Part shown: positions 16,657 to 35,694 of the stretch, piece after piece
Numbering within the stretch: the stretch's first letter is position 1
Layout: every line of letters begins with the position of its first letter
Source of the DNA: Nocardioides sp. CER19
GTDB taxonomy: Bacteria > Actinomycetota > Actinomycetes > Propionibacteriales > Nocardioidaceae
Length of the DNA stretch: 64,000 nt
NCBI RefSeq assembly: GCF_029846275.1
Contig: NZ_JARVWS010000002.1
Coordinates: forward strand, 248,001 to 312,000
Direction: 5' to 3'
The notes under the pieces: generated by a model
Databases searched by the model: none
Told to the model about the DNA's origin: nothing
Seen by the model: the letters and a program-made list of their open reading frames with translations, nothing else
Program-made: the position numbers and the translations under genes

Positions 16657-16683
16657 TGACCACCGAGGGGCGGCGCGTGTGAC
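16657..16683 (-). promoter_or_regulatory. GTCAC/GGTC promoter element P1 (hydrolase/cyt b operon)
   Basis: On the minus strand this reads GTCACA, 15 bp, TGGTCA. The -10-like half ends 53 bp before the first gene of the hydrolase-cytochrome b operon. It is back to back with element P2, with 8 bp between the two -35-like halves. Confidence 0.65.
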
Positions 16684-16691
16684 GGACTGTT

Positions 16692-16718
16692 GTCACGGCG
16701 AGCAGCCGGCCCTGGTCG
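16692..16718 (+). promoter_or_regulatory. GTCAC/GGTC promoter element P2 (XRE regulator)
   Basis: GTCACG, 15 bp, TGGTCG, ending 36 bp before the GTG of the XRE-family regulator. It is divergent from P1. Confidence 0.6.
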
Positions 16719-16754
16719 GAAGGTCGAGGACGATCAGGCAGGAGGAGAGGGGTC

Positions 16755-17600
16755 GTGGACCGAGGCCAGATGGCGGAGTTCCTCCGCACACGACGGGCGG
16801 CGCTGCAGCCCGAGGACGTCGGGATGCCGCGCGGTCGCGGCCGGCGTACGCCGGGGCTGCGGCGGGACGAGGTCGCTGCCCTCAGCGGCGTCTCGACCGA
16901 CTACTACACGCGCTTGGAGCAGCCGCATGGCCCGACGCCGTCGCCGCAGGTCCTCGCCGCGCTCTCGCGGGCGCTGCGGCTCACCGAGGACGAGCAGGCG
17001 CACCTGTTCCGGCTCGCCGGACAGGCCCTGACCCCGCGCGGGCGCCACGACACCGAGCCGGTCAGTCACGGCATGCTCCGCACCTTCGACCGGCTGGGGG
17101 ACACCCCGGCCATGATCACCGACGAGCTGGGCCGGACCCTGGCACAGACCCCGCTGGCCCGCGCGCTGTTCGGCGACGAGCGGCGCTTCACGGGGCCGGC
17201 CCGGAGCCGCGTCTACCGCTGGTTCACCGACCCGTCCGCCCGGGCGACCTCGCCGGTCGCCGACCACGAGCACCACGGCCGCGTCCTCGTGGGCCGGCTC
17301 GCCGCCACCGCCTCGGCGCAGGGCCCTCGGTCCGAAGCGGCCGCGCTCGCCGCCGACCTCCGGCGGCGGAGCGAGGAGTTCGCGGCCCTGTGGGCCGCGC
17401 ACCCCGTGGACGGCCCGTACTGCGAGCCGGTCCGCGTCGTGCACCCGCGACTCGGCGTGCTCGAGCTGCACGGTGACAGTCTCGTCGACCCCGGCCGTGA
17501 GCACGCCCTGACGGTGTTCACCGCCGAACCGGGCACTGACAGCGAGGCCGCGCTGGCCCGGCTGCGCGCCGAGAGCCTTGCCCTCTCCGACCATGGTTGA
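16755..17600 (+). CDS. XRE-family regulator with MmyB-like ligand-binding domain
   Basis: This 281-residue regulator has an N-terminal helix-turn-helix (RRTPGLRRDEVAALSGVSTDYYTRLEQ, residues about 25-60). A C-terminal MmyB-like domain follows from about residue 100 (LDRLGDTPAMI-type region, ending LTVFTAEPGT). The family is common in actinomycetes and often sits beside oxidoreductase or hydrolase genes that it controls. The GTG start follows a strong GGAGGAG Shine-Dalgarno. It is divergent from the hydrolase/cytochrome b operon and is its likely regulator (inference). The ligand is unknown; MmyB domains have been proposed to bind fatty-acid-like molecules. Confidence 0.9.
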   Translation: MDRGQMAEFLRTRRAALQPEDVGMPRGRGRRTPGLRRDEVAALSGVSTDYYTRLEQPHGPTPSPQVLAALSRALRLTEDEQAHLFRLAGQALTPRGRHDTEPVSHGMLRTFDRLGDTPAMITDELGRTLAQTPLARALFGDERRFTGPARSRVYRWFTDPSARATSPVADHEHHGRVLVGRLAATASAQGPRSEAAALAADLRRRSEEFAALWAAHPVDGPYCEPVRVVHPRLGVLELHGDSLVDPGREHALTVFTAEPGTDSEAALARLRAESLALSDHG

Positions 17601-17628
17601 GCCGCTCCGCCGCTTGCACGGTGGAGGC

Positions 17629-19059
17629 ATGACACTCGAACAACACGTCCGCGACATCCCCGGCCACTGGATCGGGGGAACCACGAGCACCGAGACCGCC
17701 CCACGCCTGGACATCGTCAGCCCGCTGGACGGCGCTGTCGTCGCCACCGCGCCCCTGGGCACCGCCGCTGACGTCGACCGCGCCGTCCGGGCGGCCCGCG
17801 CCGCCCTGCCCGGGTGGTCGGCGACCGCCCCGGCCGAGCGCGCCCGCATCCTCGAGCGCCTCGCCGACGAGCTCCAGGCGCGGCAGGAGGACATCGCGCA
17901 GGCCGTGACCTCCGAGATCGGAGCGCCGATCAGTCTCGCGCGAGCTGCACACGCCGGGTTCCCCGTCCTGGTCACCCGCGCCATCGCGAGCCTCGCTGAC
18001 GAGGTCGGTTGGCGCGAGGAGGTCGGCAACTCGGTGATCGTCCGTGAGCCGGTCGGCGTCGTCGGCGCCCTCACGCCGTGGAACTTCCCGCTGCAGCAGG
18101 TCGTCACCAAGGTGGTGCCGGCGATCCTCGCGGGCAACACCGTCGTGCTCAAGCCCGCCGAGTCAGCGCCGCTGACCGCTCCCATCCTCGCCGAGGCGGC
18201 CCAGGCCGCCGGGCTGCCCGACGGCGTCCTCAACATCGTCTACGGCCTCGGAGGGGTGGTCGGCGAGGCGATCTCCCGGCACCCCGACATCGACATGGTG
18301 TCCTTCACCGGCTCGACGGCGGTCGGCCGCCAGGTGATGATCGCGGCGTCCGACTCCCTCAAGCGCGTCGCCCTCGAGCTCGGCGGCAAGGCGGCCAACA
18401 TCGTCCTCCCCGACGCCGACCTCGACCACGCGCTGAGCGAGACCCTCGCCTACGGCTGGACGAACAGCGGACAGGCCTGCGGAGCGTGGACCAGGCTGCT
18501 GGTGCCGGCCGATCGCCACGACGAGGCCGTGACGAGACTGGTCGAGCTGGCGGCGGACTACACGGTGGGCGACCCCTGGGACGAGACGACCCGGATCGGG
18601 CCGCTCGCGTCCGAGGCGCACTGGGAGCGGGTCAACCGCTACCTCGAGCAGGGCGTCGACGACGGGCTCGACCTCGTGTACGGCGGCCCGGGCCGGGTTC
18701 CCGGGCTCGAAGCCGGTGCGTTCATCCGACCGACCATCTTCGCCGGGGTCGACCCCGCGTCCCGGCTCGCTCAGGAGGAGATCTTCGGGCCCGTCCTCGT
18801 CGTGATCCCCTACGGCACCGAGGACGAGGCGGTCGAGATCGCCAACGGCACCGTCTACGGGCTGACCGCCGCGGTGTTCGGCGAGCCCGAGCACGCACTC
18901 GCCGTGGCCGGCCGGCTGGAGGTCGGGCAGGTCTACGTCAACGGCGCCACGTTCAACCCGCTGGCGCCGTTCGGCGGCCGCAAGCAGTCCGGCGGCGGCC
19001 GGGAGATGGGCCGCGCCGGCGTGGAGGAGTTCACCGAGCTGAAGGCCGTTCAGCGTTGA
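17629..19059 (+). CDS. Aldehyde dehydrogenase family protein
   Basis: This 476-residue NAD(P)-dependent aldehyde dehydrogenase has the Rossmann-region motif GFTGSTAVGR-like (SFTGSTAVG), catalytic Glu250 in LELGGK and catalytic Cys284 in SGQACGAW. It also has the conserved EIFGPVL and the C-terminal PFGGRKQSG. The ATG at 17629 has GGAGG directly upstream; an in-frame ATG at 17578 lies inside the XRE gene and has weaker support. It starts 28 bp after the XRE regulator on the same strand, so the two may be co-transcribed. Substrate preference cannot be told from the sequence. Confidence 0.94.
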   Translation: MTLEQHVRDIPGHWIGGTTSTETAPRLDIVSPLDGAVVATAPLGTAADVDRAVRAARAALPGWSATAPAERARILERLADELQARQEDIAQAVTSEIGAPISLARAAHAGFPVLVTRAIASLADEVGWREEVGNSVIVREPVGVVGALTPWNFPLQQVVTKVVPAILAGNTVVLKPAESAPLTAPILAEAAQAAGLPDGVLNIVYGLGGVVGEAISRHPDIDMVSFTGSTAVGRQVMIAASDSLKRVALELGGKAANIVLPDADLDHALSETLAYGWTNSGQACGAWTRLLVPADRHDEAVTRLVELAADYTVGDPWDETTRIGPLASEAHWERVNRYLEQGVDDGLDLVYGGPGRVPGLEAGAFIRPTIFAGVDPASRLAQEEIFGPVLVVIPYGTEDEAVEIANGTVYGLTAAVFGEPEHALAVAGRLEVGQVYVNGATFNPLAPFGGRKQSGGGREMGRAGVEEFTELKAVQR

Positions 19060-19060
19060 T

Positions 19061-19104
19061 CGAGCGACCCGGCGACCGCCCCGAGGTGGTCGCCGGGTCG
19101 CTCG
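19061..19104. terminator. Perfect 17-bp bidirectional hairpin
   Basis: Bases 19061-19077 and 19088-19104 are exact reverse complements with a 10-base loop. The hairpin lies between two convergent stops (19059 and 19110), so it should act on both strands. It has no T tract, as is common in GC-rich actinomycetes. Confidence 0.8.
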
Positions 19105-19109
19105 GCCGT

Positions 19110-19702: not shown

Positions 19703-20626
19703 TCAGCGGGCGTTGGTCGGGTCGGTCTGCGGGTTCAGCTCGATGACGTCGGTGACCGCCCGGACGAACGCCTCGGGGGCCTCCTGCGGCAGGTTGTGCC
19801 CGGCTCGCGGCACGCGGCGGTGCAGCCGCGGACCGGTGAACCGGTCCGCGTCGGGCAGTCCCTCGGTGACGGGGAAGTTGCCGTCGGCCTCGCCCTCGAG
19901 GGTGACGGTCGGGACGCTGATCACCGGACGCTCTGCCAGGGCGCGCTCGAGGTCGTCGTACGCCGGGTCGCCCGGTGCCTGGCCGAGCCGGTGCCGGTAG
20001 GAGTGCAGCACCACGTCGACGTAGTCGGGGTTGGCGAACGCGGCCGCGGTCCGGTCGAGCGTCGCGGCGTCGAAGTGCCAGGCGGGGGAGTTGCGCCGCC
20101 AGATCACCTCGGCGACCCCGCGCGGGTCGGCGGCCAGGCCGGCGCGTCCGCGCTCGGTGAGGAAGTAGAAGAAGTACCAGAACCCGGCCTCGAGCTGGGG
20201 TGGGAGCGGCCGTGCCGCGGCGGCGACGTCCTGGATCAGGTAGCCGTTGACGGTGACCAGCCCGGAGACCCGGTCGGGGTGGAGGGCGGCGGCCACGCAG
20301 GCGGCCCGGCCGCCCCAGTCGTAGCCGGCGAGGACGGCCTCCGGCAGGTCGAGGGCGTCGAGGAGCTCGAGCACGTCGGCGCCGAGCGCCGCCTGCTGTC
20401 CCGAGCGGACCGTCGCATCGCTGAGGAACCGGGTCGGGCCGTGGCCGCGCAGGTAGGGGACCACCACCCGGTGACCGCGTGCCGCCAGCAGGGGCGTGAC
20501 CGCCTCGTAGCTGTGCACGTCGTAGGGAAAGCCGTGCAGCAGCAGCACGGCGGGGCCGTCGGACGGTCCCTGCTCGAGGTAGCCGACCTCCAGGGTGCGG
20601 GTGGTGACCCCCTTGAGCTGTCCCAT
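19703..20626 (-). CDS. Alpha/beta hydrolase, epoxide hydrolase/dehalogenase-like
   Basis: This 307-residue hydrolase has LLHGFP at the oxyanion region and GYDWGG at the nucleophile elbow. The nucleophile is therefore Asp103 rather than Ser, as in epoxide hydrolases and haloalkane dehalogenases. The C-terminal His is in RAGHNLPQE. A cap region rich in aromatic residues (EAGFWYFFYFLTERGR) lies between. It is the first gene of an operon with the redoxin protein, with promoter P3 40 bp upstream. An epoxide or halogenated substrate is likely, and its identity is unknown. Confidence 0.9.
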   Translation of the reverse strand: MGQLKGVTTRTLEVGYLEQGPSDGPAVLLLHGFPYDVHSYEAVTPLLAARGHRVVVPYLRGHGPTRFLSDATVRSGQQAALGADVLELLDALDLPEAVLAGYDWGGRAACVAAALHPDRVSGLVTVNGYLIQDVAAAARPLPPQLEAGFWYFFYFLTERGRAGLAADPRGVAEVIWRRNSPAWHFDAATLDRTAAAFANPDYVDVVLHSYRHRLGQAPGDPAYDDLERALAERPVISVPTVTLEGEADGNFPVTEGLPDADRFTGPRLHRRVPRAGHNLPQEAPEAFVRAVTDVIELNPQTDPTNAR

Positions 20627-20666: not shown

Positions 20667-20693
20667 CGACCACGCGGAGGAGGATTCGGTGAC
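20667..20693 (-). promoter_or_regulatory. GTCAC/GGTC promoter element P3 (hydrolase/redoxin)
   Basis: On the minus strand: GTCACC, 15 bp, TGGTCG, ending 40 bp before the hydrolase ATG at 20626. It lies just past the terminator hairpin of the upstream SDR gene. Confidence 0.6.
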
Positions 20694-22059: not shown

Positions 22060-24939
22060 ATGACCGTCTGGGACGACGTGGTTCGGGAACCGGGCACCGC
22101 GGCCGAGCCGCTGGCGTCGTCCTCGCACCCCCGCACCGTCGAGATCGGCCGGAGTCGTTCGAGGAGTCCGATGAGCGCCACCTCGCCCCGCCTGGTCGGT
22201 CGCCGCGACGAGCGCGGGACGCTCGACGACCTGCTCGTCGACCTGCATGCCGGCCGCTCTGCGACCTGCGTGGTGCGGGGCGAGGCGGGTATCGGCAAGT
22301 CGGTCCTGTTGGAGTACGTCGTCTCGCGCGGCGGGAAGCTCACCCTCAGCCGGGCCCAGGGCATCGAGGCCGACATGGAGCTGGCCTACGCGAGCCTGCA
22401 TCAGATCTGCGCTCCCTTCATGTCGGGCATCTACGACCTTCCGGACCCGCAGCGGGACGCCCTGCAGGTCGCCTTCGGGATGGCGGCAGGGGACCCGCCC
22501 GACCGCTTCCTGGTCGGCTTGGCGGTCCTCACGCTGCTGACCCGGGCCTCCGAGAACCGGCCTGTGCTGCTGGTCGTCGACGACGCCCAGTGGCTCGACC
22601 GGATCTCCCTGCTGACCTTGGAGTTCGTCGCCCGCCGGCTGCTGGCCGAGGCGGTGGCGATGGTGTTCGCGGTGCGGGAGCCGGAGGGCAGCGCCGTCCT
22701 CGTCGGCCTCCCTGAGCTCCGCGTGGCAGGCCTCGACCCGGCCGCCGCCGGTGAGCTGCTCGAGTCGTCCGTGGAGGGGGCGCTGGAGGACCGGGTCCGT
22801 GACCGGCTGGTCGCCGAGACCCAGGGCAACCCGCTCGCCCTCCTCGAGCTCTCTCGTGGCCGGAGCGCCGCAGAGCTCGCCTACGGACTGGACGCAGCCG
22901 AGACCGCCACGCTGTCGAGTCGCATCGAGCAAGACTTCGCGCGCCGGCTCACCTCGCTGCCCGAGGACACCCGCACGCTGCTCCTCATCGCCGCCGCCGA
23001 GCCCGTGGGTGACCCACGACTGCTGCTGCAGGCCGCCGACCTGCTCAGGATCACTCCGGACGCGACTCCGGCGAAGGCAGCCGGTCTCATCGAGCTCGGC
23101 GAGAGCCTTCGCTTCCGGCACCCGCTGGCGCGCTCTGCCGTCTACCGGCAGGCCGCACCCGAGGACCGCCGCGCGGTGCACCGCAGCCTCGCGACCGCCA
23201 CCGACCCGGTCACGGACCCTGACCGACGTGCCTGGCACGCCGCCCAGGCGTCCGACGGACCCGACGAAGAGGTCGCCGCCGGCCTCGAGCGAGCCGCCGA
23301 CCGCGCTCGGCAACGCGGTGGGATGTCCGCGGAGGCGGTGCTCCTCGAGCGGGCCGCCGAGCTCACCCCCGACCCGTGGACGCGCGGTCGGCGAGCCCTC
23401 GCCGCCGCCGGCGCGTACTTCTCCGCTGCCTCCCCTGACCGGGCCACCGAGCTGGCCTCGCTCGCCGAGCTGTGCCCCCTCACCGCGCTCGACCGGGCTC
23501 GACTCTCGCGCCTGCGCGCCCGCATCCTCTTCGCCCGTAGCAGGAGCGACGAGGCGGCTCCGCTCCTCCTCGACGCGGCCGGCGCGTTCGCCGCCGAGGG
23601 GTCGCCGCTGGCCCGGGAGACCTACCTCGAGGCCATCAGCGCCACGGTCTTCGCCGGACGCGTTCACGGCCCGGCCGGGGCCCGGGCCGCCGCCGTCGCC
23701 TCTCGACGGGCGGGCGCCAAGCCATCGAGCTCGCCGGCCTCCGACCAGCTGCTCGACGGGGTGGCGACGCTCCTCGCCGACGGCCACCAGGCGGGAGCGC
23801 CGGCGCTGCGCCGCGCCCTCGACCCGTTCCTCACCGAACAGCTCGCCAGCCGGGAGGAGACGATGCGGTGGCTGCTGCACGTGCCGGTGGCGATCGAGTC
23901 GTTCATCCACCATGCGTGGGACCTGCCCGCCTGGGACGCCCTGTCGGCCCGCGCCGTCCGGCTCGCCCGCGACATCGGCGCGCTCAGCGTCCTGCCTCCC
24001 GCGCTCATCTACGCCGGCGGCGTCCAGATCCACCACGGCGACTTCGCGGCCGCGGCCCGGATGATCGGCGAGGCCGACGCCATCGCCGCGGCGACCGGCA
24101 ACGCGCCGCACGCCTACGCCGCGCTCGTGCTGGCCGGCTGGCGTGGCGACGAGCAGGCCGCGATGGACCTCATCCGGCCGGCGCTGGCCAACGCCACCGA
24201 GCGCGGCGAGGTCTCGCTCCTCGGCGTCACCGGCTACATCCGCGCGGTCCTCTACAACGGGCTGGCGCAGTACGACCGCGCCCTGGAGGCGGCCCGCGCC
24301 GGCATCGAGCACGACGGCTACAACTTCACCGGCCTGCCCCTCGTGGAGCACGTCGAGGCCGCCGTACGGTGCGGCCAGCGCGAGCAGGCTCAGGAGTCGC
24401 TGGAGCGGCTCCTCGACCTCACGAGCGCCGTCAGCAGCGGCTGGGCCGGTGGCGCGAGTGCCCGCAGCCGTGCACTGCTCGCTGCGGACGAGGACGCCGA
24501 GGCTCTGTATCGCACCGCCTTGGCTGAGTTCGACCGCGACCGGGTCGTCGTCGAGGTCGCCCGCACCCATCTCCTCTACGGCGAGTGGCTGCGCCGGTCG
24601 CGACGTCGCGCCGACGCTCGCGACCAGCTCCGCACCGGACATGACATGTTCGAGGCCATGGGCGCCCGCGGCTTCGCCGAGCGCGCCCGGCGTGAGCTGA
24701 ACGCGACCGGTGAGCACGTCCGGGCGCGCACCGTCGAGGTGGTCACCGAGCTGACCTCCCAGGAGGCGCAGATCGCCGCCCTGGCCGCGGACGGCATGAC
24801 GAACCCGAAGATCGGCGCCGAGCTGTTCCTCAGTCCGCACACCGTCGAGTGGCACCTGAGGAAGGTCTACGGCAAGCTCGGGATCAGCTCGCGGCGTCAG
24901 CTGCCCACCGCCCTCCGAGCGCTCGCCGGTGAGGGCTGA
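22060..24939 (+). CDS. LAL-type LuxR regulator with AAA ATPase (copy 1)
   Basis: This 959-residue regulator has Walker A GEAGIGKS (residues 74-81), Walker B LLVVDDAQWLD, a long TPR-like helical middle part and a C-terminal LuxR helix-turn-helix (LTSQEAQIAALAADGMTNPKI... HTVEWHLRKVYGKLGI). It follows Rrf2 by 25 bp. The ATG at 22060 has GAGAGGGG upstream. An in-frame ATG at 22171, after GAGGAG, would start right at the usual family beginning (SPRLVGRRDE) and is a fair alternative. It is a paralogue of the protein at 26049-28799. Ligand and targets are unknown. Confidence 0.9.
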   Translation: MTVWDDVVREPGTAAEPLASSSHPRTVEIGRSRSRSPMSATSPRLVGRRDERGTLDDLLVDLHAGRSATCVVRGEAGIGKSVLLEYVVSRGGKLTLSRAQGIEADMELAYASLHQICAPFMSGIYDLPDPQRDALQVAFGMAAGDPPDRFLVGLAVLTLLTRASENRPVLLVVDDAQWLDRISLLTLEFVARRLLAEAVAMVFAVREPEGSAVLVGLPELRVAGLDPAAAGELLESSVEGALEDRVRDRLVAETQGNPLALLELSRGRSAAELAYGLDAAETATLSSRIEQDFARRLTSLPEDTRTLLLIAAAEPVGDPRLLLQAADLLRITPDATPAKAAGLIELGESLRFRHPLARSAVYRQAAPEDRRAVHRSLATATDPVTDPDRRAWHAAQASDGPDEEVAAGLERAADRARQRGGMSAEAVLLERAAELTPDPWTRGRRALAAAGAYFSAASPDRATELASLAELCPLTALDRARLSRLRARILFARSRSDEAAPLLLDAAGAFAAEGSPLARETYLEAISATVFAGRVHGPAGARAAAVASRRAGAKPSSSPASDQLLDGVATLLADGHQAGAPALRRALDPFLTEQLASREETMRWLLHVPVAIESFIHHAWDLPAWDALSARAVRLARDIGALSVLPPALIYAGGVQIHHGDFAAAARMIGEADAIAAATGNAPHAYAALVLAGWRGDEQAAMDLIRPALANATERGEVSLLGVTGYIRAVLYNGLAQYDRALEAARAGIEHDGYNFTGLPLVEHVEAAVRCGQREQAQESLERLLDLTSAVSSGWAGGASARSRALLAADEDAEALYRTALAEFDRDRVVVEVARTHLLYGEWLRRSRRRADARDQLRTGHDMFEAMGARGFAERARRELNATGEHVRARTVEVVTELTSQEAQIAALAADGMTNPKIGAELFLSPHTVEWHLRKVYGKLGISSRRQLPTALRALAGEG

Positions 24940-25208: not shown

Positions 25209-25949
25209 ATGTCACCGCTCGCCCTGGACACCGTCCCCGTCGAGACGCCACCGGCTGCAGGCGGTGCAGTCGAGGGCGTGGACGACGTGGATCGTGCGCT
25301 GCACGTCTTCCTCGCCCACCGCACCCGGCTGTTCCGCATCGCCCACCGGGTCACCGGCGACGTCGCCAGCGCCGAGGACGTCGTGCAGGAGGCGTGGGTG
25401 CGCTGGCAGCGCGTCGACCGTGCCGTCATCAAGAACCCCGCCGCGTTCCTGACCACCGCGACCACGCACCTGGCGATCAACCTGATCCAGACCGCCCGGC
25501 ACCGCCACGAGACTCCCGCCGAGCCGCCCCTGATCGACCTCGTGGACACCGCGCAGGACCCGGCGGCCCGGGCGGAGGAGGCCGCGGCGGTGGAGGAGAG
25601 CATGCGGTTGATGCTCGCCCGGCTGACCCGCCCCGAGCTGACCGCCTACCTGCTGCGCAAGGGCTTCGACTACGCGTACGCCGACCTGGCGCGCCTGCTG
25701 CGGACCACCGTCCCGAACACCCGCCAGCTCGTCCGGCGCGCTCAGCTGCGTCTGGACGGCGGACCCGACCGCCCGGTCGAGCAGGCCGAGCTGCGACTCT
25801 TGACCGCCGTCTTCCTGCATGCCGCCCGCACGGGCCACGTGGAGGCGCTCGAGCGGCTCCTGGCCGCCGACGCGTCGGCCCCCGGATGCGGCGGAGTGCG
25901 CCGGCCGAGGGTCCGATACGGGCACCGGCCGACGCCCCGGATCGCCTGA
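25209..25949 (+). CDS. ECF41/SigJ-like sigma factor with shortened C-terminus
   Basis: This 246-residue sigma-70 family protein has region 2 (LFRIAHRVTGDVASAEDVVQEAWVRW) and region 4 (YLLRKGFDYAYADLARLL... TRQLVRRAQLRL), with the spacing of the SigJ/ECF41 group. That group normally carries a C-terminal SnoaL-like domain of about 100 residues. Here only its first helix (ARTGHVEALERLLAAD) remains, followed by about 25 arginine- and proline-rich residues that do not fit the domain. The ATG at 25209 has AGGAGG upstream. Helical tandem repeats lie in the upstream DNA. It is the best local candidate for recognising the GTCAC/GGTC elements. Confidence 0.85.
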   Translation: MSPLALDTVPVETPPAAGGAVEGVDDVDRALHVFLAHRTRLFRIAHRVTGDVASAEDVVQEAWVRWQRVDRAVIKNPAAFLTTATTHLAINLIQTARHRHETPAEPPLIDLVDTAQDPAARAEEAAAVEESMRLMLARLTRPELTAYLLRKGFDYAYADLARLLRTTVPNTRQLVRRAQLRLDGGPDRPVEQAELRLLTAVFLHAARTGHVEALERLLAADASAPGCGGVRRPRVRYGHRPTPRIA

Positions 25950-26048: not shown

Positions 26049-28799
26049 ATGGAACGAAGTCCGAGACCGTCGGCGGCCCTGCTCGGACGACGGCGTGAGT
26101 GTGCAGCACTCGACGAGCTGATCACGTCCGTCGAAGGCGGCCTCAGCGCGTCGCTCCTCATCCACGGTGAGGCCGGCATCGGCAAGACCGCCCTGCTCCA
26201 TTACGTCCGTCAGAAGGCCGAGACCTTCCGCGTCGCGCGCCTGGCGGGGATCGAGGCCGAGGCGGAGCTCGCCTTCGGGGGCCTGCACCAGCTCTGCCGA
26301 CCGTTCCTCGCGCACCTGCCTGGACTGCCCCCGCCTCAGCGCGAGGCACTCGAGACGGCCTTCGGCCTGCGGACCGGAACCCCTCCCGACCGCTTCCTGG
26401 TCGGCTTGGCCACCCTCGGCCTCCTCGCCGATGTCGCCGCCGAGCGGCCGCTGCTCTGCCAGGTCGACGACGCACAGTGGCTGGACCAGGTCTCGGCCCA
26501 GACCCTCGCCTTCGTCGGTCGCCGCCTCTCCGCAGAGCGCGTGCTCCTCCTCGCCGCCATGCGCGACCCGGTTGCCGGACACCCGTTCCAGGTCCTTCCG
26601 CAAGAGCAGCTGACCGGCCTCGACGACCACGACGCTCGAACGCTGCTGGCCAGGAGCGCTCCGGGCCGCGTCGACGAACGGGTCCGGGAGCGGGTGCTCG
26701 CCGAGGCGCGCGGCAACCCGCTGGCCCTCCTCGAGCTGCCCCGGACTGCAACGACCTTCACGGTAGGGGCCGGCGACGGCGATCGATCGGTCACCGGCAA
26801 CCACGTCGAGAGGGCATTCCGTCGACGACTCCAGGCGCTGTCGCCCGACGCCCAGCGGTTCCTGCTCCTCGCCGCCGCGGACCCGGCCGGGGACGTCTCA
26901 CAGCTGCGTCTGGCCGCCGAGGCGCTGCACCTCCACGTCGAGGTCGCGGCCGCCGAGGCGGAAGCGGCGGACCTGCTCACGGTGCGGAGCATGGTGCGAT
27001 TCCGACACCCGCTGGTCCGTTCGGCGGCCTACCACTCGGCCTCCGCAGCGGAGCGCCGCCAGGTGCACGCCGCTCTCGCCGCGGCCACCGATCCCCTGAC
27101 CGACCCCGATCGCAGGGCGTGGCACCTGGCCAACGCCACCGCGGCCGCGGACGAGCGGGTCGCCGCCGGGCTCGAGGCGGCCTCCGGGCGCGCCCGCGCG
27201 CGCGGCGGTGTCGCCGCCGCTGCCGCGTTCCTCGGCCGGGCCGCCGAGCTCACGGCCGATCCCGAGCGCCGTGGCCGGCGAACGCTCGAGGCGGCGACCC
27301 TGATGTCCCAGGCGGGGGAGTTCGGCCCCGCCCTCGAGCTCCTCGACGCCGCGCGGCTGCATCCTCTCGGTGAGCGCGACGAAGCTCGAGCCGAACTCGT
27401 CCGGGGACAGGTACTGGCCGCATCGCGCAGCGCGAGCGCCGGGCTGCCGCTGCTGCTCTCCGCGGCATGGCGGCTGGAGACGCTCGACCCGGCGCTGGCG
27501 ACACTCACCTACCGCGACGCGCTCTACGCGGCCCTGACCGCCGGCAGCGTCCCCCGGGAGCCAGGCGCGGCCGAGCACGTCGCTGCGGCCATCCTGATGA
27601 GGCGACAGGCCGTCGATCGGTCCCGCGCCGACCTCCTCCTCGAAGGCGCAGCACGCCTGGTGACCGGCGACCCCGCCGGACTACCCCAGTTACAGGAGGC
27701 GCTCACGGCGTACGAGTCCGCTGACCTCGAGCCGGAGGAGGCACTCGGGTGGCTCCCCCTCGCCTGCCGGATGGCGCACGACGCGTGGGAGTTCGGCACC
27801 TGGTCGTTCCTCTCCGGCCGCCTCGTCGACCTCGCCCGGGCCGCGGGCGCCCTCGCCGTGCTGCCCTCGGCGTTCCTGCTGCGGCTCTCCAACCGGGTCT
27901 TCGCCGGTGAGCTCGCCGCCGGGGAGGCGCTCCTGGCACAGGCCACTTCCCTGGCCGAGGTCGCCGGCAGCGGATTCGCAGCCAACTACGGCGCTCTGGT
28001 GCTCGCGCCGTGGCAAGGGGAGGAGGAGTGGACGGCGGACCTCATCGGGCGCATCAACGCGGACAGCTCGATCCAGGGCGAGGGCAAGGTGATCACGGCG
28101 ACCCGATGGGCGGCTGCCGTGCTCGCCAACGCCACCGGACACCACGAGGAGGCGCTTGTCGCGGGGCGGGGTGGCGCGGCGCACCCCGCGGAGATGGGCC
28201 TCTCCACCTGGTCGATGGTGGAGGTCGTCGAGGCGGCCTCCCGGGTCGGCCGTCCGCAGGAGGCGGAGGACGCCGTACGCCGGCTGCGCGCGAGTGCGCT
28301 GGCCAGCGGCAGCGACTGGGCCCTGGGCACGGCGGCCTACGTCTCCGCCCTGGTCGCGCGCGACGAGGACGCTGAAGAGCTCTACCAGGAGGCGGTCGAC
28401 CGCCTCGAGCGCGCCGACGTCCACGCCCTCGCGGCACGGGCCCACCTGGTCTACGGCGAGTGGCTGCTCGGACAGGGACGCATCGACGAGGGGCGCGACC
28501 GGCTCGCGCACGCCCACGACCTGTTCGAACGGATGGGCGCGGCCGCCTTCGCCCGACGTGCCCTCGCCGCGCTCGGCACCAGCCGCTCCGCGGTCAACAG
28601 CCAGGCACGGACGGCGCCATCACCGCTCACCCCGCAGGAAGCGCAGATCGCGGCGCTCGCTGCCACCGGCATGACCAATCCGGAGATCGGGGCGGAGCTC
28701 TTCCTCAGCGCCCACACTGTCGAGTGGCACCTGCGCAAGGTCTTCGCCAAGCTCGGCATCCGGTCGCGGCGGGAGATCGCCTCGCGACTCGCTCGGTGA
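26049..28799 (+). CDS. LAL-type LuxR regulator with AAA ATPase (copy 2)
   Basis: This 916-residue protein has the same plan as the one at 22060-24939: Walker A GEAGIGKT (residues 40-47), Walker B LLCQVDDAQWLD, a helical repeat region and a C-terminal LuxR helix-turn-helix (LTPQEAQIAALAATGMTNPEI... KVFAKLGI). The HTHs of the two copies are nearly identical, so they may bind similar DNA. It is on the same strand as the ECF sigma gene, 99 bp after it. ATG 26049 gives the normal family start. The inducer is unknown. Confidence 0.9.
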   Translation: MERSPRPSAALLGRRRECAALDELITSVEGGLSASLLIHGEAGIGKTALLHYVRQKAETFRVARLAGIEAEAELAFGGLHQLCRPFLAHLPGLPPPQREALETAFGLRTGTPPDRFLVGLATLGLLADVAAERPLLCQVDDAQWLDQVSAQTLAFVGRRLSAERVLLLAAMRDPVAGHPFQVLPQEQLTGLDDHDARTLLARSAPGRVDERVRERVLAEARGNPLALLELPRTATTFTVGAGDGDRSVTGNHVERAFRRRLQALSPDAQRFLLLAAADPAGDVSQLRLAAEALHLHVEVAAAEAEAADLLTVRSMVRFRHPLVRSAAYHSASAAERRQVHAALAAATDPLTDPDRRAWHLANATAAADERVAAGLEAASGRARARGGVAAAAAFLGRAAELTADPERRGRRTLEAATLMSQAGEFGPALELLDAARLHPLGERDEARAELVRGQVLAASRSASAGLPLLLSAAWRLETLDPALATLTYRDALYAALTAGSVPREPGAAEHVAAAILMRRQAVDRSRADLLLEGAARLVTGDPAGLPQLQEALTAYESADLEPEEALGWLPLACRMAHDAWEFGTWSFLSGRLVDLARAAGALAVLPSAFLLRLSNRVFAGELAAGEALLAQATSLAEVAGSGFAANYGALVLAPWQGEEEWTADLIGRINADSSIQGEGKVITATRWAAAVLANATGHHEEALVAGRGGAAHPAEMGLSTWSMVEVVEAASRVGRPQEAEDAVRRLRASALASGSDWALGTAAYVSALVARDEDAEELYQEAVDRLERADVHALAARAHLVYGEWLLGQGRIDEGRDRLAHAHDLFERMGAAAFARRALAALGTSRSAVNSQARTAPSPLTPQEAQIAALAATGMTNPEIGAELFLSAHTVEWHLRKVFAKLGIRSRREIASRLAR

Positions 28800-28804: not shown

Positions 28805-28831
28805 GTCACGAACACGTGAGGAGTCCGGTCG
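28805..28831 (+). promoter_or_regulatory. GTCAC/GGTC promoter element P4 (small acidic protein)
   Basis: GTCACG, 15 bp, CGGTCG. It begins 5 bp after the LAL copy 2 stop and ends 48 bp before the small gene at 28880. Confidence 0.6.
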
Positions 28832-28879: not shown

Positions 28880-29056
28880 ATGCCCGAGCAGCCTCACCGC
28901 ACCGATCGCCTCCGCGACGACATCGACCTCGAGATCGCTCTCGCCCGGGCCGGCGCGGACCCCGCCGGCGACGACGAACCGGAGGCCGAGCCTTACCTGA
29001 CCAGGCTGCTCAGCCTCCGGGATGCCGTCGCGGCCGGGGACACGGAGGAGGGCTGA
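28880..29056 (+). CDS. Small acidic hypothetical protein, 58 aa
   Basis: This is a 58-residue ORF with ATG at 28880 and AGGAG 7 bp upstream. It is acidic and helical-looking (RLRDDIDLEIALARAG, then EPEAEPYLTRLLSLRDAV). It has no cysteine, membrane segment or recognisable family. Three signs support it as a real gene: its own promoter element P4, a good Shine-Dalgarno, and a tight fit between LAL copy 2 and the convergent ferritin-like gene (14 bp between stops). The function is unknown. Confidence 0.65.
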   Translation: MPEQPHRTDRLRDDIDLEIALARAGADPAGDDEPEAEPYLTRLLSLRDAVAAGDTEEG

Positions 29057-30142: not shown

Positions 30143-30169
30143 CGACCGGACGGAAGCCGCCGACGTGAC
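30143..30169 (-). promoter_or_regulatory. GTCAC/GGTC promoter element P5 (ferritin-like)
   Basis: On the minus strand: GTCACG, 15 bp, CGGTCG. Only 7 bp separate the -10-like half from the ferritin-like ATG, pointing to a leaderless transcript. Its -35-like half is 2 bp from that of P6, forming GTGAC-GA-GTCAC. Confidence 0.7.
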
Positions 30170-30171
30170 GA

Positions 30172-30198
30172 GTCACAAGCCGTCCCCACCCCCGGTCA
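30172..30198 (+). promoter_or_regulatory. GTCAC/GGTC promoter element P6 (SigF-like sigma gene)
   Basis: GTCACA, 15 bp, CGGTCA, ending 33 bp before the SigF-like gene. It is divergent from P5. It would place one sigma factor under another. Confidence 0.65.
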
Positions 30199-30231: not shown

Positions 30232-30912
30232 ATGAACGACGTCCAACGACGCATGCGCACCGACGAGCTGGTGGACCGGCTCAGGACGGCCACCGACGAA
30301 GAACGCGCGGAGCTGGTCGACGACCTCGCTGTGACCAACATGGTGCTGGCCCGGCGCATCGCGCACCGCCTCGGACGCCACTCCCAGCACGTTCTGGATC
30401 TGGAGCAGGTGGCCTATCTCGCCCTGGTGCGGGCCGCGCGGGACTTCGACCCGACGCTCGGGCACGACTTTCTCTCGTACGCCGTCCCGTGCATCAGGGG
30501 CGCGGTCAAGCGCTACTTCCGCGACTCGGCCTGGCTCGTGCGACCGCCGCGGACCGCACAGGCGCAGTACCTGCGGTCCGACCACGGCGACGACGTGGTG
30601 GACGGCGTCCCCCTCCGGTCCTGCCTGAGGCCCTACAGCCTGGACGCTCCCGATGACACCGCCGCACCGCTGAGAGAGACGCTGGTCGACCTCGACGACC
30701 GGACCTGGGAGCAGACCGAGGCACGACTCATGCTCGCGCCGCACCTGAAAGCTCTCCCCGTCCAAGCGCGGCGGGTGCTGCACCGGCGGTTCGTCGAGGA
30801 CCGCACGCAGCAGCAGATCGCGGACGAGCTCGGCGTGTCGCAATATCACGTCTCCCGACTGCTCGACCGCTACCTGCGCCAGCTGCGTGAGCGGATGACC
30901 GAGCCCGCCTGA
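30232..30912 (+). CDS. SigF/SigB-type RNA polymerase sigma factor
   Basis: This 226-residue sigma-70 group 3 factor of the general-stress SigF/SigB type has region 2 with DLEQVAYLALVRAARDFDP and FLSYAVPCIRGAVKRYFRD, the group hallmark WLVRPPR, and region 4 (LGVSQYHVSRLLDRYLRQLRERM). The start has AGGAGGAACC upstream. Such factors are usually held by an RsbW-type anti-sigma factor. None is next to it; only a remnant of an RsbW-like gene is seen at about 49.7 kb. It is divergent from the ferritin-like gene, with promoters P5 and P6 between them. Confidence 0.9.
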   Translation: MNDVQRRMRTDELVDRLRTATDEERAELVDDLAVTNMVLARRIAHRLGRHSQHVLDLEQVAYLALVRAARDFDPTLGHDFLSYAVPCIRGAVKRYFRDSAWLVRPPRTAQAQYLRSDHGDDVVDGVPLRSCLRPYSLDAPDDTAAPLRETLVDLDDRTWEQTEARLMLAPHLKALPVQARRVLHRRFVEDRTQQQIADELGVSQYHVSRLLDRYLRQLRERMTEPA

Positions 30913-30937: not shown

Positions 30938-32671
30938 TCACTCGACCAGCTTGCCGTCGATCGGGACGTCCTCGCGCACGAGCCGAGTCAGCTCGGCCGG
31001 GACCGGCGGGACCCCCTCCCGCACCACCCCGGTCGTCGGCGACCAGACGAGGTTCACCTGGAGCGCGGGGTCGAGCTCGGGGTGGTCGCTCCGGTTGTGG
31101 CACCCGCGGGTCTCGCGCCGCTCGAGGGCGCTCTCCAGCGTCGCTCGCGCCGCGAGCAGCGAGGCCTTGAGGTCGAAGGCGTGGGCCAGGTCCTGGAAGC
31201 CGGCGATGTCGGGGTGGATGCCGACGGACTCAGCGCGGCCCTCGATCTCCTCGAGGTCGAGCAGGCCAGCCCGCAGCCCCTCCCCGTCACGGAGGACGCC
31301 CGCATGCTCGGTCATCGTGTCGCGGACCGCGCGCTGCAGCGCGCGGACGTTCTCCCGACCGTCGGCCGCGAGGAGCGCCCGCACCTCCTCGCGCGCCTCC
31401 TCCTCGGCCTCCCGCGACCTGCGATGGACCTCCAGCCCCGCCGAGTGCTCCGCGGCGGCGCGGCCGGTGATCCGGCCGTAGACGAGCAGCTCGATCAGGG
31501 AGTTGCCGCCCAGGCGGTTCGCGCCGTGCAGCCCACTGGCGGCCTCGCCGATCGCATACAGGCCCTCGACGTCGGTGCCGTGGTCGTCCGGTCGCACCCA
31601 CACGCCGCCCATCGAGTAGTGCGCCGTCGGGGCGACCTCGATCGGGTCGGTCGTGATGTCGAGCATCTGCAGGTCCATCAGCGTCTGGTAGACGCGGGGC
31701 AACCTGGTCACGATCGTCTCGCGGGGTAGGTGCGAGACGTCGAGCCAGACCCCGCCGTGCGGGGTTCCCCGGCCCGCCTTGATCTCGGAGTAGGACGCGA
31801 GGGCGACCCGGTCACGCGTCGAGAGCTCCATCCGCGCCGGGTCGTAGCGCTCCATGAAGCGCTCGCCGAGCGCGTTGCGCAGCACCCCGCCCTCGCCGCG
31901 GGCGGCCTCCGACACGAGGGTGCCGGCCGCGTTCTCCGGCGCCAGCAGGCCCGAGGGGTGGAACTGCACGAGTTCGGCGTCCCGCAGCCGGGCGCCGGCA
32001 TCGACCGCGAGGCGGAAGGAGTCGCCGTTGTTCTCGTCGCGCCGGGACGACGTACGCCGCCAGATGCGCGTGTGGCCGCCGGCGGCCAGGATCACCGCGT
32101 CCGCGTGCAGCACATATCGGGTGCCCTCGGTCAGGTCGAAGGCGTAGGCGCCGAACACGACACCGTCCGCCGTCAGGATCCGCGTCACGTAGAGGCTGTC
32201 GAGGATCGGCACGCGCAGCTGCTCGGCGCGGTCGACGAGCGCCCGCTGGATCGCGAGGCCGGTGTAGTCGCCGGCGAAGGCGGTGCGGCGGTAGGTGTGC
32301 GCACCGAAGAAGCGCTGCGAGATCCGGCCGTCGTCCTCGCGCGCGAAGTCCATCCCGAACCGGACCAGGTCGGCGATCCCGCGCTCGGCGCCCTTCGCCA
32401 CGACCTCGACGGTGCGGGGGTCGGCCAGGAAGTAGCTCTCCTTGATGGTGTCGGCCGCGTGCTGCTGCCAGCTGTCGGCGGGGTCCATCGTGCCCAGTGC
32501 GGCGTTGATGCCGCCTGCCGCCAGGGAGGTGTGGGCGTCCAGCCGGGGCCGTTTCCCGATCACGAGGACGTCGGTACCGACCTCCGCGAGCTCGATGGCC
32601 GCCCGCAGGCCGGCCCCGCCCGTGCCGATGACGAGCACGCTCGTCGTGATCCGCCGCTCGTTCGCGCGCAT
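30938..32671 (-). CDS. FAD-dependent flavoprotein, L-aspartate oxidase/fumarate reductase-like
   Basis: This 577-residue flavoprotein belongs to the SdhA/FrdA/NadB family. It has the N-terminal FAD motif VIGTGGAGLRAAIE, then TSLAAGGINAALG, HPSG, PTAHYSMGGVWV and GLHGANRLGGNSLIELLVYGRI. The C-terminal helical domain ends with TTGVVREGV. No iron-sulfur or membrane-anchor subunit and no nadA/nadC are nearby, so it is either an orphan L-aspartate oxidase-like enzyme or a soluble fumarate reductase/dicarboxylate oxidase. A covalent FAD histidine in the SdhA manner cannot be confirmed by eye. Promoter P7 lies 42 bp upstream. Confidence 0.85.
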   Translation of the reverse strand: MRANERRITTSVLVIGTGGAGLRAAIELAEVGTDVLVIGKRPRLDAHTSLAAGGINAALGTMDPADSWQQHAADTIKESYFLADPRTVEVVAKGAERGIADLVRFGMDFAREDDGRISQRFFGAHTYRRTAFAGDYTGLAIQRALVDRAEQLRVPILDSLYVTRILTADGVVFGAYAFDLTEGTRYVLHADAVILAAGGHTRIWRRTSSRRDENNGDSFRLAVDAGARLRDAELVQFHPSGLLAPENAAGTLVSEAARGEGGVLRNALGERFMERYDPARMELSTRDRVALASYSEIKAGRGTPHGGVWLDVSHLPRETIVTRLPRVYQTLMDLQMLDITTDPIEVAPTAHYSMGGVWVRPDDHGTDVEGLYAIGEAASGLHGANRLGGNSLIELLVYGRITGRAAAEHSAGLEVHRRSREAEEEAREEVRALLAADGRENVRALQRAVRDTMTEHAGVLRDGEGLRAGLLDLEEIEGRAESVGIHPDIAGFQDLAHAFDLKASLLAARATLESALERRETRGCHNRSDHPELDPALQVNLVWSPTTGVVREGVPPVPAELTRLVREDVPIDGKLVE

Positions 32672-32713: not shown

Positions 32714-32740
32714 CGACCGGACAGCGCGCCGCGCTGTGAC
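32714..32740 (-). promoter_or_regulatory. GTCAC/GGTC promoter element P7 (flavoprotein)
   Basis: On the minus strand: GTCACA, 15 bp, CGGTCG, ending 42 bp before the flavoprotein ATG. With P8 it forms the inverted repeat CTGTGAC-N15-GTCACAG. Confidence 0.7.
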
Positions 32741-32755
32741 AACGCGTAGCGGGCC

Positions 32756-32782
32756 GTCACAGGGCGCGCCTCCTCCCGGTCG
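32756..32782 (+). promoter_or_regulatory. GTCAC/GGTC promoter element P8 (distal, toward SDR)
   Basis: GTCACA, 15 bp, CGGTCG. It is divergent from P7 and far (about 250 bp) from the SDR start, upstream of P9. Confidence 0.6.
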
Positions 32783-32912: not shown

Positions 32913-32939
32913 GTCACACGCGACCGTGGCGTCCGGTCG
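32913..32939 (+). promoter_or_regulatory. GTCAC/GGTC promoter element P9 (proximal, SDR)
   Basis: GTCACA, 15 bp, CGGTCG, preceded by CT to give the full CTGTCACA of the strongest copies. It ends 92 bp before the SDR ATG at 33032. Confidence 0.7.
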
Positions 32940-33031: not shown

Positions 33032-33784
33032 ATGAAGGTCGTCGTCATCGGAGGAAGCGGTCTGGTCGGCTCGAAGGTGGTCAAGCTGCTGGGCGAGCAC
33101 GGCCACGAGGCCGTGCCGGCGTCGCCGCAGACCGGGTGCAACACCGTCACTGGTGAAGGCCTCGACGAAGCCGTGGCCGGCGCCGACGTCGTCGTGGACG
33201 TGTCGAACTCACCGTCGTTCGCCGACGACGACGTCCTGCACTTCTTCACCGCGTCGACCACGAACATCCTGGAGGCGGAGAAGAAGGCCGGCGTCGACCA
33301 CCACGTCGCCCTCTCGATCGTGGGTTGCGACCGGGCGCCCGACAGCGGCTACCTCCGCGCCAAGGTCGCCCAGGAGCGGCTCATCCAGGAGTCCGGACAG
33401 CCGTACTGCATCGTCCGCGCGACGCAGTTCTTCGAGTTCGGCAAGACGATCGCCGACTCGGCCACCGTCGACGGTGAGGTGCACCTGCCGCCGGTCGGGT
33501 TCCAGCCCATCGCGTCCGACGACGTCGCGCGCGCCGTCGGTCGGATGGCCGCCGGCAAGCCGATCAACGGGCATCTCGAGGTCGCCGGCCCGACCCGCTA
33601 CCGGTTCGACGAGTTCATCGCCGGTGTTCTCGAGCGCCTCGGCGACCCGCGCCGCGTCGTCGCCGATCCGCAGGCGCCGTACTTCGGCCAGGTGCTGGCC
33701 GAGGACACCATCGTCCCGGGCGAGGGTGCTGAGCTGGCCGCGACCACCTACGAGGAGTGGGTGAAGCTCTCCGAGCAGCGCTGA
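33032..33784 (+). CDS. NmrA-like SDR / NAD(P)-binding protein (paralogue)
   Basis: This 250-residue atypical SDR has the N-terminal motif GGSGLVGSKVVKLLGEHGHE and the NmrA-like motif LSIVGCDRAPDSGYLRAKVAQE. It is a close relative of the protein at 20744-21478 (shared VDVSNSPS/VTQSPS region, ALSIVG, AKVAQE, RATQFFEF/RATQFHEF). The ATG follows GAAAGAGG. Promoters P8 and P9 lie upstream, and a strong terminator follows at 33805. ECF41 sigma factors are known to control oxidoreductase, epimerase and carboxymuconolactone decarboxylase genes, so an SDR under this promoter fits. The exact reaction is unknown. Confidence 0.9.
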   Translation: MKVVVIGGSGLVGSKVVKLLGEHGHEAVPASPQTGCNTVTGEGLDEAVAGADVVVDVSNSPSFADDDVLHFFTASTTNILEAEKKAGVDHHVALSIVGCDRAPDSGYLRAKVAQERLIQESGQPYCIVRATQFFEFGKTIADSATVDGEVHLPPVGFQPIASDDVARAVGRMAAGKPINGHLEVAGPTRYRFDEFIAGVLERLGDPRRVVADPQAPYFGQVLAEDTIVPGEGAELAATTYEEWVKLSEQR

Positions 33785-33804
33785 CCGCTCCGCGGGGCGT
33801 ACGT

Positions 33805-33840
33805 CGCGCCGGTCGCCGGATCTGTCCGGCGGCCGGCGCG
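33805..33840 (+). terminator. 16-bp hairpin after the SDR gene
   Basis: Arms 33805-33820 and 33825-33840 pair over 16 bp with one G-U wobble and the loop TCTG. It separates the SDR from promoter P10. Confidence 0.75.
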
Positions 33841-33855
33841 CTGCTGCCCCCGGCT

Positions 33856-33882
33856 GTCACACCGTGGCGGGGTGTGCGGTCT
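33856..33882 (+). promoter_or_regulatory. GTCAC/GGTC promoter element P10 (NDH-2), leaderless geometry
   Basis: GTCACA, 15 bp, CGGTCT, then 8 bp to the GTG start at 33891. Transcription would begin at or next to the start codon. Confidence 0.7.
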
Positions 33883-33890
33883 AAGAGTTC

Positions 33891-35288
33891 GTGAAGACCC
33901 TCACCCGTGCACACCGAGGCTCCGCGCCCCGACGGATCGTCATCGTCGGAGGCGGGTACGCCGGCTTCTACACCGCGTGGCAGCTCGAGAAGCGCCTGCG
34001 CCCCGGCGAGGCGACGGTCACCGTCGTCGACCCGCTGCCCTACATGACCTACCAACCGTTCCTGCCCGAGGTGCTGGCCGGTTCCATCGAGGCTCGGCAC
34101 GCCGTCATCTCCCTGCGACGCCACCTGCGCCGCACGCGGGTCGTCAACGGTGCGGTCACCTCGATCGACCACGACCGGCGGACGGCGTACGTGCACCTGA
34201 CCGGGGGTGGTGAGGTCCCGCTCGAGTACGACGAGGTCGTCGTCACGGCGGGCTCGATCACCCGCACCTTCCCGGTGCCGGGCATCCCCGACGAGGCGAT
34301 CGGGCTCAAGCGGATCGAGGAGGCGGTCGCCATCCGCGACACCCTGCTCAGCTCGCTCGACATCGCCGCCGACCTGCCGCCCGGCCCAGATCGCGACCGG
34401 CTGCTGACCGTCACGTTCGTGGGCGGCGGCTTCGCCGGCGTCGAGGGCTTCGCCGAGCTGCTCAGCCTGGCTCGGGCGGTCGCAAGGAAGCGTTATCGGA
34501 TCGACCCGGCCGAGCTGCGCTTCCACCTGGTCGAGGCCGCCGGCCGCATCCTGCCCGAGGTGAGCCCGTCGGTCAGCGTGTGGGTCGCGAAGCGGCTGAC
34601 CCACAAGGGCGCCGCCGTGCACCTCGGCACCACCGTGACGTCGGTGTGCGACGGCGTCGTCGACCTCTCGTCCGGCGAGAGGTTCGAGTCCGGGCTCATC
34701 GTGTGGACCGCCGGCATCGCCGCGAACCCGGTGATCGCCAAGCGGACCGATCTCCCCACGAACGCACGCGGCCTGATCGTCGTACGGCCCGACCTGCAGG
34801 TCGGCACGGACGAGGCGCCCGTGCCGGGAGCCTGGGCCGCCGGCGACGCCGCGGCCGTCCCCGACCTCGCGGTCGGCGGATCGGCCGTCACCGTGCCCAA
34901 CGCCCAGCACGCCGTGCGCCAGGGCAAGCGGCTGGCGAAGAACCTTGCCGCCGTGACTCGCGGCCGACGTACTCGCCCCTATCGACACGGCAGCCTCGGC
35001 GTCATCGCCACCCTCGGACTGGGCGACGGCGTCTTCGAGAGCGGCCCGGTCGTGCTCAAGGGATTCCTCGCGTGGGTCGTCCACCGGGGCTACCACGTGC
35101 TCGCGATCCCGACCTGGGAGCGCAAGCTGCGGGTGCTGGCGGTCTGGGGGCTGGGCGCGTTCCTCGGACGGGACATCGTGTCGCTGCGCTCGGTGCAGCA
35201 GCCGGGCTACGGGTTCCGGCACGAGGGGCAGGTCTGGTACCCCGACACGCGTCGCCGTGAGTCAGAGGAGCTCCGGGCGGCGAAGTGA
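33891..35288 (+). CDS. Type II NADH dehydrogenase-like FAD oxidoreductase
   Basis: This 465-residue flavoprotein of the NDH-2 family passes electrons from NADH to the quinone pool without pumping protons. It has an FAD-binding motif near the N-terminus (VIVGGGYAGFYTAWQLE), the NADH-binding motif FVGGGFAGVEGFAEL, VWTAGIAANP, and AAGDAAAVPDLAVGG before a membrane-associated C-terminal part. The GTG at 33891 has no Shine-Dalgarno, and promoter P10 ends 8 bp before it, so the mRNA is probably leaderless. A hairpin at 35303 follows the gene. Membership in the GTCAC/GGTC set suggests induction under redox stress. Confidence 0.92.
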   Translation: MKTLTRAHRGSAPRRIVIVGGGYAGFYTAWQLEKRLRPGEATVTVVDPLPYMTYQPFLPEVLAGSIEARHAVISLRRHLRRTRVVNGAVTSIDHDRRTAYVHLTGGGEVPLEYDEVVVTAGSITRTFPVPGIPDEAIGLKRIEEAVAIRDTLLSSLDIAADLPPGPDRDRLLTVTFVGGGFAGVEGFAELLSLARAVARKRYRIDPAELRFHLVEAAGRILPEVSPSVSVWVAKRLTHKGAAVHLGTTVTSVCDGVVDLSSGERFESGLIVWTAGIAANPVIAKRTDLPTNARGLIVVRPDLQVGTDEAPVPGAWAAGDAAAVPDLAVGGSAVTVPNAQHAVRQGKRLAKNLAAVTRGRRTRPYRHGSLGVIATLGLGDGVFESGPVVLKGFLAWVVHRGYHVLAIPTWERKLRVLAVWGLGAFLGRDIVSLRSVQQPGYGFRHEGQVWYPDTRRRESEELRAAK

Positions 35289-35302
35289 GCGAATGCGGTC
35301 GG

Positions 35303-35329
35303 CACGGTCACTCCCAGGGAGTGACCGTG
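35303..35329. terminator. Convergent hairpin after NDH-2 and the zinc-ribbon gene
   Basis: CACGGTCACTCCC, one base, then the exact reverse complement. It follows the NDH-2 stop by 14 bp and overlaps the last codons of the convergent 108-aa gene, so it can serve both strands. Confidence 0.65.
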
Positions 35330-35634
35330 TCGACCCCGTCGAGCTGCTCGTGCCAGCTCAGCATGTCCTCGCGGGTGAACGGCGAACCCGCCGGTGGGAG
35401 GTCGGCCTTGTCCAGGCGCGGCTCGGCGAGCGCGACCGGCCGGACACCCACGAGCAGCAGCTGGGCGAGCAGGTCGCTGCGGACGGTGCTGACGCTCGGC
35501 CGTCCGCAGGCAGGGCAGCAGTAGAGCAGCTCGGCCGCAGGGCGAGGCTCGACGTCGACGCGGAGCACGGCGCGATCCATGTAGACAGTGACCTCGTCGT
35601 CACAGCGCGGGCAGATCAGCAAGATGTCCACCAC
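35308..35634 (-). CDS. Small zinc-ribbon hypothetical protein, 108 aa
   Basis: The GTG at 35634, 6 bp after AAGGAG, starts a 108-residue protein. A much longer reading frame continues upstream through the FUSC region but is only a shadow. CPRC near residue 10 and CCPACG near residue 41 form a four-cysteine zinc-ribbon. The rest is helical and acidic (DKADLPPAGSPFTREDMLSWHEQLDG). I do not recognise the family. Promoter P11 lies 33 bp upstream. Its membership in the shared promoter set suggests a redox- or metal-linked role. Confidence 0.7.
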   Translation of the reverse strand: MVDILLICPRCDDEVTVYMDRAVLRVDVEPRPAAELLYCCPACGRPSVSTVRSDLLAQLLLVGVRPVALAEPRLDKADLPPAGSPFTREDMLSWHEQLDGVDTVTPWE

Positions 35635-35667
35635 GACCGGCTCCTTCCATGCGTTGTCACGAAGGTC

Positions 35668-35694
35668 CGACCGGACGCCGATCGAAGCCGTGAC
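35668..35694 (-). promoter_or_regulatory. GTCAC/GGTC promoter element P11 (zinc-ribbon gene)
   Basis: On the minus strand: GTCACG, 15 bp, CGGTCG, ending 33 bp before the GTG at 35634. Confidence 0.7.

Follow-up and report, generated by a model that had tools for sequence, protein, structure and literature searches.

Extracytoplasmic function (ECF) sigma factors of the ECF41 family were first described in a study in which a single enzyme gene was found to be controlled, from a promoter of the form TGTCACA-n16-CGTC, by a sigma factor that is itself governed by a fused SnoaL domain (Wecke 2012, PMC3426412). In Ecf41Bli, removal of the whole extension abolished activity, while retention of 37 residues raised activity about 20-fold over that of the intact protein (PMC3426412). 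In a different lineage (ECF282), a C-terminal Ala-Ala makes the sigma factor AntA a substrate of ClpXP (PMC7142297). Here we describe a stretch of 64,000 nucleotides from Nocardioides sp. CER19 (contig NZ_JARVWS010000002.1, positions 248,001 to 312,000; hereafter the window), in which a cluster of redox and hydrolase genes carries eleven copies of the element GTCACV-N15-YGGTC. Sequence comparison indicates that these copies are very probably promoters of a sigma factor derived from the SigJ/ECF41 group and encoded within the cluster (25209-25949).

Eleven copies of one element

An exact scan for GTCACV-N15-YGGTC (equivalent to GTCAC-N16-YGGTC) on both strands of the window gave 11 matches, all within 19 kb, where 0.84 (standard deviation 0.92) would be expected for the whole 64 kb. 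The largest count in 100 shuffles of the window was four, and no exact copy was found in the window outside 16.6-35.7 kb. These are the eleven sites, and only those, reported in an initial annotation of this DNA, except that the minus-strand copies start one base higher than given there (16658, 20668, 30144, 32715 and 35669). The fixed gap of 15 bp between the hexamers, also claimed there, is the only one enriched: when spacers of N8 to N27 after GTCAC were compared, N16 had 11 sites and every other spacing 0-3. The base preceding GGTC is C in eight copies and T in three, and in none is it A or G.

All eleven copies lie outside gene calls and each is aimed at a start codon, in agreement with the initial annotation. 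Counted from the final C to where the start codon begins, ten of them end 9-94 bases before it; the remaining copy, 32756(+), ends 251 bases from the start and is the second upstream site of a gene that is also served by 32913(+). Gene calls were based on codon-position G+C and open frames and are approximate; the starts of 15758-16603, 28880-29056 and 12522-13979 were called one codon late, by which two of the distances shift by 3 bases. Transcription is expected to start ten bases after the final C. Since the start codon of the ferritin-like gene lies 9 bases past this C, and the GTG start codon of the NDH-2-like gene coincides with the predicted transcription start, both mRNAs would be leaderless or nearly so.

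Placement in the whole genome (4.69 Mb) was judged from 75 exact matches. Outside the cluster, 55 of 64 matches are found inside called genes and nine outside, compared with 11 of 11 outside genes in the cluster (hypergeometric probability about 3e-8). Matches as common in genes as upstream of them, the result named beforehand as speaking against promoters, are thus seen in the background but not in the cluster (0/11). Two of the nine intergenic background matches are placed like promoters before gene families that are present in the cluster. One (1149097-1149122 on contig 2 of this genome, G000; L259 near base 1497) precedes another gene for the small CPRC/CPAC protein, far from the cluster; the other (600371-600396 on the same contig; L253 near base 1471) lies 48 bases before an alpha/beta hydrolase gene, the product of which has an HGGGW motif. 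As family membership was no part of the search, these two sites support a promoter function of the element.

A shifted code of the probable promoters

A scan of named genomes gave 80 loci, nearly all actinobacterial. In these loci GTCAC-N17-GGTC occurs 215 times, versus 21-60 times at neighbouring spacings, and the TGTC form 66 times at N17 versus 5-41 at other spacings; CGTC, found 44 times at N17, shows no peak over other spacings. At the same spacing, 38 canonical ECF41 loci have CGTC 25 times, TGTC 19 times and GGTC twice, and no homologue of a regulon gene was found to have CGTC at this spacing in its upstream region. In the 144 sites collected before such homologues, GTCAC is preceded by T in 72% and followed by A in 75%; these positions were free in the search, and they identify the -35 as the TGTCACA of ECF41. 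A purine is present in 84% of these sites exactly ten bases past the final C, at the expected transcription start. The likeness to ECF41/SigJ promoters that had been noted initially therefore holds for kinship and for the -35, with a single spacing within the 16 ± 1 of ECF41, but not for the -10, which here is CGGTC (or CTGTC), one base off the CGTC of the known relatives.

Among the columns in which the two codes are most clearly distinguished is residue 94 in region 2.4, with Arg in 37 of the 38 canonical sequences and predominantly Gln in the groups that use GGTC. It is only a candidate determinant of the -10 code, as common descent has left other differences between the groups as well. In two Promicromonospora loci of the same sigma branch (L142 and L145) the promoter code may have drifted further.

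The element co-occurs with the SigJ-like sigma factor

Related clusters in the genus Nocardioides were located via the flavoprotein gene, and 40-kb stretches were compared. Four genomes (G126, G164, G209 and G156) each have several elements, which precede the homologous genes and differ in spacer sequence. In two others (G181 and G148) the genes for the flavoprotein and the NDH-2-like protein are present, with neither a SigJ-like sigma gene nor an element there. A promoter swap to the canonical code was considered for these two genomes and rejected, as the CGTC form at that spacing, sought close before both flavoprotein genes, was not found.

The SigJ-like sigma factor was searched for in 216 genomes of the genus, and homologues with 43-57% identity defined further loci. 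The element is present in 11 of these 12 loci, and in the twelfth (L129) a site of the TGTC form lies no more than 1500 bases away; the element was found in none of eight control loci of 20 kb around distant ECF41 paralogues. These comparisons bear out both the view that the element is a promoter for a sigma factor and not a site for a repressor, and the suggestion that the sigma factor of 25209-25949 is its reader. Four minimal loci (G076, G199, G168 and contig 2 of G148) share only the sigma gene, the epimerase gene and an intervening element. The epimerase gene, of the COE type (carboxymuconolactone decarboxylase, oxidoreductase or epimerase), also adjoins full-length relatives of the sigma factor, with an element before it. 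The single target of ECF41 is not seen here, with 11 sites in the window and 12 in a Streptomyces locus (L175). Truncation does not account for a regulon of many promoters, since about 12 sites also occur with full-length members such as the S. flaveolus protein of L175.

A SigJ-like sigma factor without its SnoaL domain

The protein encoded at 25209-25949 (246 residues, ending in -PRIA) contains the sigma-2 and sigma-4 regions and matches TIGR02957 (E 6.6e-46) and the SigJ model (E 2.2e-40), both below the curated cut-offs. Profile matches relate it to SigJ and SigX4, and its best solved relative is SigJ of M. tuberculosis (5xe7, E 2.8e-22). A tree separates the canonical ECF41 proteins (38 rows, 100% support in the Shimodaira-Hasegawa-like approximate likelihood-ratio test, SH-aLRT), a large full-length GGTC group and the short branch of the window's protein (22 rows, 98%). 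Site counts within ±1500 bases, as shown with the tree, miss sites located behind the 2.7-kb LuxR genes, and many rows of the short branch read 'none'; the 20-kb counts are the fair ones.

No SnoaL_2 domain was found, even at E 0.1, in the window's sigma factor or in L065 and L123, although it is present in the full-length L126, L131, L132 and L068. The WLPEP linker, found in 38/38 canonical ECF41 proteins and in 7/18 members from the genus (the full-length ones), is replaced by AEPPLIDLV, and the distal NPDKL-type motif, which is APDKL or VPDKL in most full-length relatives, is absent with the truncation. The protein aligns with its full-length relatives up to residue 218-222 or so, about 40 residues past sigma-4, where homology stops. 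From this alignment, the natural truncation appears to resemble the active laboratory truncation Ecf41Bli-204, in which about 37 residues were kept after sigma-4 and the rest of the SnoaL extension was lost (PMC3426412). That construct is a man-made protein with hyperactivity at one promoter, whereas the present case is natural and common to a whole branch.

The tail of the short branch is not conserved except at its very end, which is Ala in 18 of 22 sequences and Ala-Ala in 13, compared with 20 and five of the 114 other sequences (Fisher p about 1e-8 for the terminal alanine, the sequences not being independent). These alanine-ended tails resemble a ClpXP degron, which for the -RIA end of the window's protein is suggestive rather than established. 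Like AntA (ECF282, PMC7142297), this is a cluster-situated ECF sigma factor without an anti-sigma factor, with a LuxR regulator probably involved and a C-terminal alanine motif. AntA, however, belongs to a different ECF lineage with a different regulon, degradation has been shown for AntA only, and it ends in -AA.

With the described ECF41 members (M. tuberculosis SigJ, Ecf41Bli and Ecf41Rsp; PMC3426412) the system shares the -35, a spacer of about 16, the sigma-2/sigma-4 core and an epimerase-type COE target. It differs in its -10, in having many promoters instead of one target and, for the window's branch, in the missing SnoaL_2, WLPEP and distal PDKL. The lineage, set apart in this way from ECF41 as defined in the founding study, may already bear a 2021 ECF subgroup number.

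Genes preceded by the element

Gene identities were derived from Pfam and NCBIfam profile matches. On the minus strand, element GTCACACGCGCCGCCCCTCGGTGGTC (16658-16683) lies before three alpha/beta hydrolase genes followed by a QcrB-like cytochrome b gene (16603-12522), which judging from their spacing probably form one operon; the element is present before 9/14 homologues of hydrolase ab15.8 and 5/15 of the cytochrome b. The latter (12522-13979) scores above the curated threshold for actinobacterial QcrB and is located beside hydrolase genes, apparently without the usual bc1 partners. On the plus strand, element GTCACGGCGAGCAGCCGGCCCTGGTC (16692-16717) precedes genes for an XRE/MmyB-like regulator and an aldehyde dehydrogenase (16755-19059) and is weakly conserved (1/11 homologues of XRE16.8). 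Another alpha/beta hydrolase gene (19703-20626, minus strand) follows the element at 20668-20693(-), with an element before 8/10 homologues.

The SigJ-like sigma gene itself (plus strand) is situated between two genes for giant LuxR/AAA_16 regulators on the same strand, one upstream (22060-24939, LAL-type) and one downstream (26049-28799). No element precedes either of these two genes, the sigma gene or the Rrf2 gene. Giant LuxR regulators on both sides of the sigma factor are a feature of the short branch. The element at 28805-28830(+), known from the exact scan, lies before a gene for a 58-residue protein with a weak ABATE-like Pfam match. The ferritin-like protein gene (PF12902; 29071-30135, minus strand) follows the element at 30144-30169(-), which is found before 10/15 homologues. 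The SdhA/FrdA-like (fumarate-reductase-like) flavoprotein gene (30938-32671, minus strand) is preceded by the element at 32715-32740(-), as are 25/33 homologues. The gene for an NAD(P)-binding NmrA/epimerase protein of the short-chain dehydrogenase/reductase type (33032-33784, plus strand), the COE-type partner of ECF41, has two elements, a distal one from the exact scan (32756-32781(+)) and a proximal one (32913-32938(+)) that is present before 46/71 homologues. The NDH-2-like pyridine nucleotide-disulphide oxidoreductase gene (33891-35288, plus strand) follows the element at 33856-33881(+) (11/21 homologues), and the small CPRC...CPAC protein with two CxxC motifs (35308-35631, minus strand) that at 35669-35694(-) (7/7 homologues).

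The 'stress or redox' label proposed for the regulon is a guess from gene content, and its redoxin was not among the 20 main open reading frames scanned against Pfam. Likewise, 'redox and hydrolase cluster' is used here as a description of gene content only.

A second, SigF-like sigma factor

The element at 30172-30197(+) precedes a second sigma gene (30232-30912, plus strand), which encodes a protein of 226 residues with its best matches in the SigB/SigF family TIGR02980, at 143.6 bits versus a cut-off of 234. Regions 2 and 4 match, but about 25-30 residues between them are missing in comparison with an ordinary relative (G044), so that the full set of regions 2, 3 and 4 of the SigB/SigF group is not found, region 3 being shortened. 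An element is present before 5/6 homologues. Sigma factors of this type with a short region 3 recur in five genomes of the genus (the window's own, G156, G209, G164 and G300). Elsewhere in the genome (L080 9775-10083; contig 1 of G000, about 1399775-1400083) a remnant of another SigF-like gene, with its middle missing, adjoins hydrolase genes and an XRE gene similar to those of the cluster.

Alternative explanations

The SigF-like sigma factor could itself read the elements and activate its own gene, the ECF-like protein being a mere neighbour. Its gene does lie under an element, and group-3 sigma promoters have a similar spacing. Yet G126 and G169 keep the element in the homologous cluster and lack an orthologue genome-wide, having only ordinary SigF-type paralogues (E about 1e-26 to 1e-28), and the protein is not among the genes listed for the 80 named, element-rich loci. 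We therefore reject it as the reader and regard it, in line with the initial annotation, as a target, the probability left to the opposite view being very low. Scarcely more probable is that the elements are operators for a transcription factor of the cluster (the LuxR pair or a factor of the Rrf2 or XRE type). The GTC repeats, 21-22 bp apart, could suit a direct-repeat binder, and LuxR pairs flank the sigma gene; but in several loci the element occurs with the sigma and epimerase genes and with none of these regulators, and in its -35 and spacer it is identical to ECF41 promoters, with a purine at the predicted start. As the minimal loci consist of sigma gene, epimerase gene and element only, a binder from among the regulators of the larger cluster is disfavoured.

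Recognition mainly by another ECF41 paralogue is improbable to the same degree as an operator function. The genome has six matches to the SigJ family model and the -35 is common to the whole group, but at the loci of canonical paralogues the -10 is CGTC (or TGTC) and hardly ever GGTC, and the elements cluster only around this sigma factor. Chance or composition, for which the high G+C content and the roughly 64 background matches might speak, has a negligible probability in view of the excess over expectation and shuffles, the single spacing, the lack of further copies in the window, the conservation in related clusters and the contrast between further sigma loci and control loci. Several observations do count against assigning the elements to the sigma factor of 25209-25949: the two Promicromonospora loci have no well-placed exact copy before the flavoprotein gene; G148 has a full-length relative of the sigma factor elsewhere, and still its flavoprotein locus is without an element; the six family matches include paralogues that could cross-recognise the elements; and, as to the degron, the protein ends in -RIA and not in -AA.

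Proposed model

From the comparisons of sequences and relatives we infer that RNA polymerase with the SigJ-like sigma factor would read the -35 TGTCACA and the -10 CGGTC across a fixed spacer. Once the sigma factor is made, some ten transcripts would start together, encoding the hydrolases and cytochrome b, the regulator and aldehyde dehydrogenase, the ferritin-like protein, the flavoprotein, the epimerase, the NDH-2-like protein, two small proteins and the SigF-like sigma factor, which would pass the signal onward in a cascade. The level of the SigJ-like protein would probably be set by the giant LuxR pair; it is not expected to be self-amplifying, because its gene has no element. The window's branch would have retained activity by keeping the first 40 or so residues after sigma-4, and the alanine-ended tail may make the protein short-lived via ClpXP.

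The complete picture, to which we give somewhat less than an even chance, is that a branch of the ECF41 type naturally dropped the SnoaL domain, kept only the part on which activity depends, and came to be controlled instead by the pair of giant LuxR regulators and by a degron for ClpXP at its C-terminus. The lineage of this branch would read a shifted -10, possibly through the Arg to Gln change at residue 94, and would command not a single enzyme gene but a whole cluster that includes a sigma factor with a short region 3.

Implications

The founding picture of ECF41 is extended by a widespread actinobacterial lineage with up to about 12 promoters, one moved base in the -10 and one branch without the SnoaL domain. 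This branch offers a natural experiment on the role of that domain, and the CGTC and GGTC groups, as two matched promoter codes, could serve to map the residues that determine specificity. The element also makes an uncharacterised cluster of redox and hydrolase genes accessible, as these genes can be found by their promoter.

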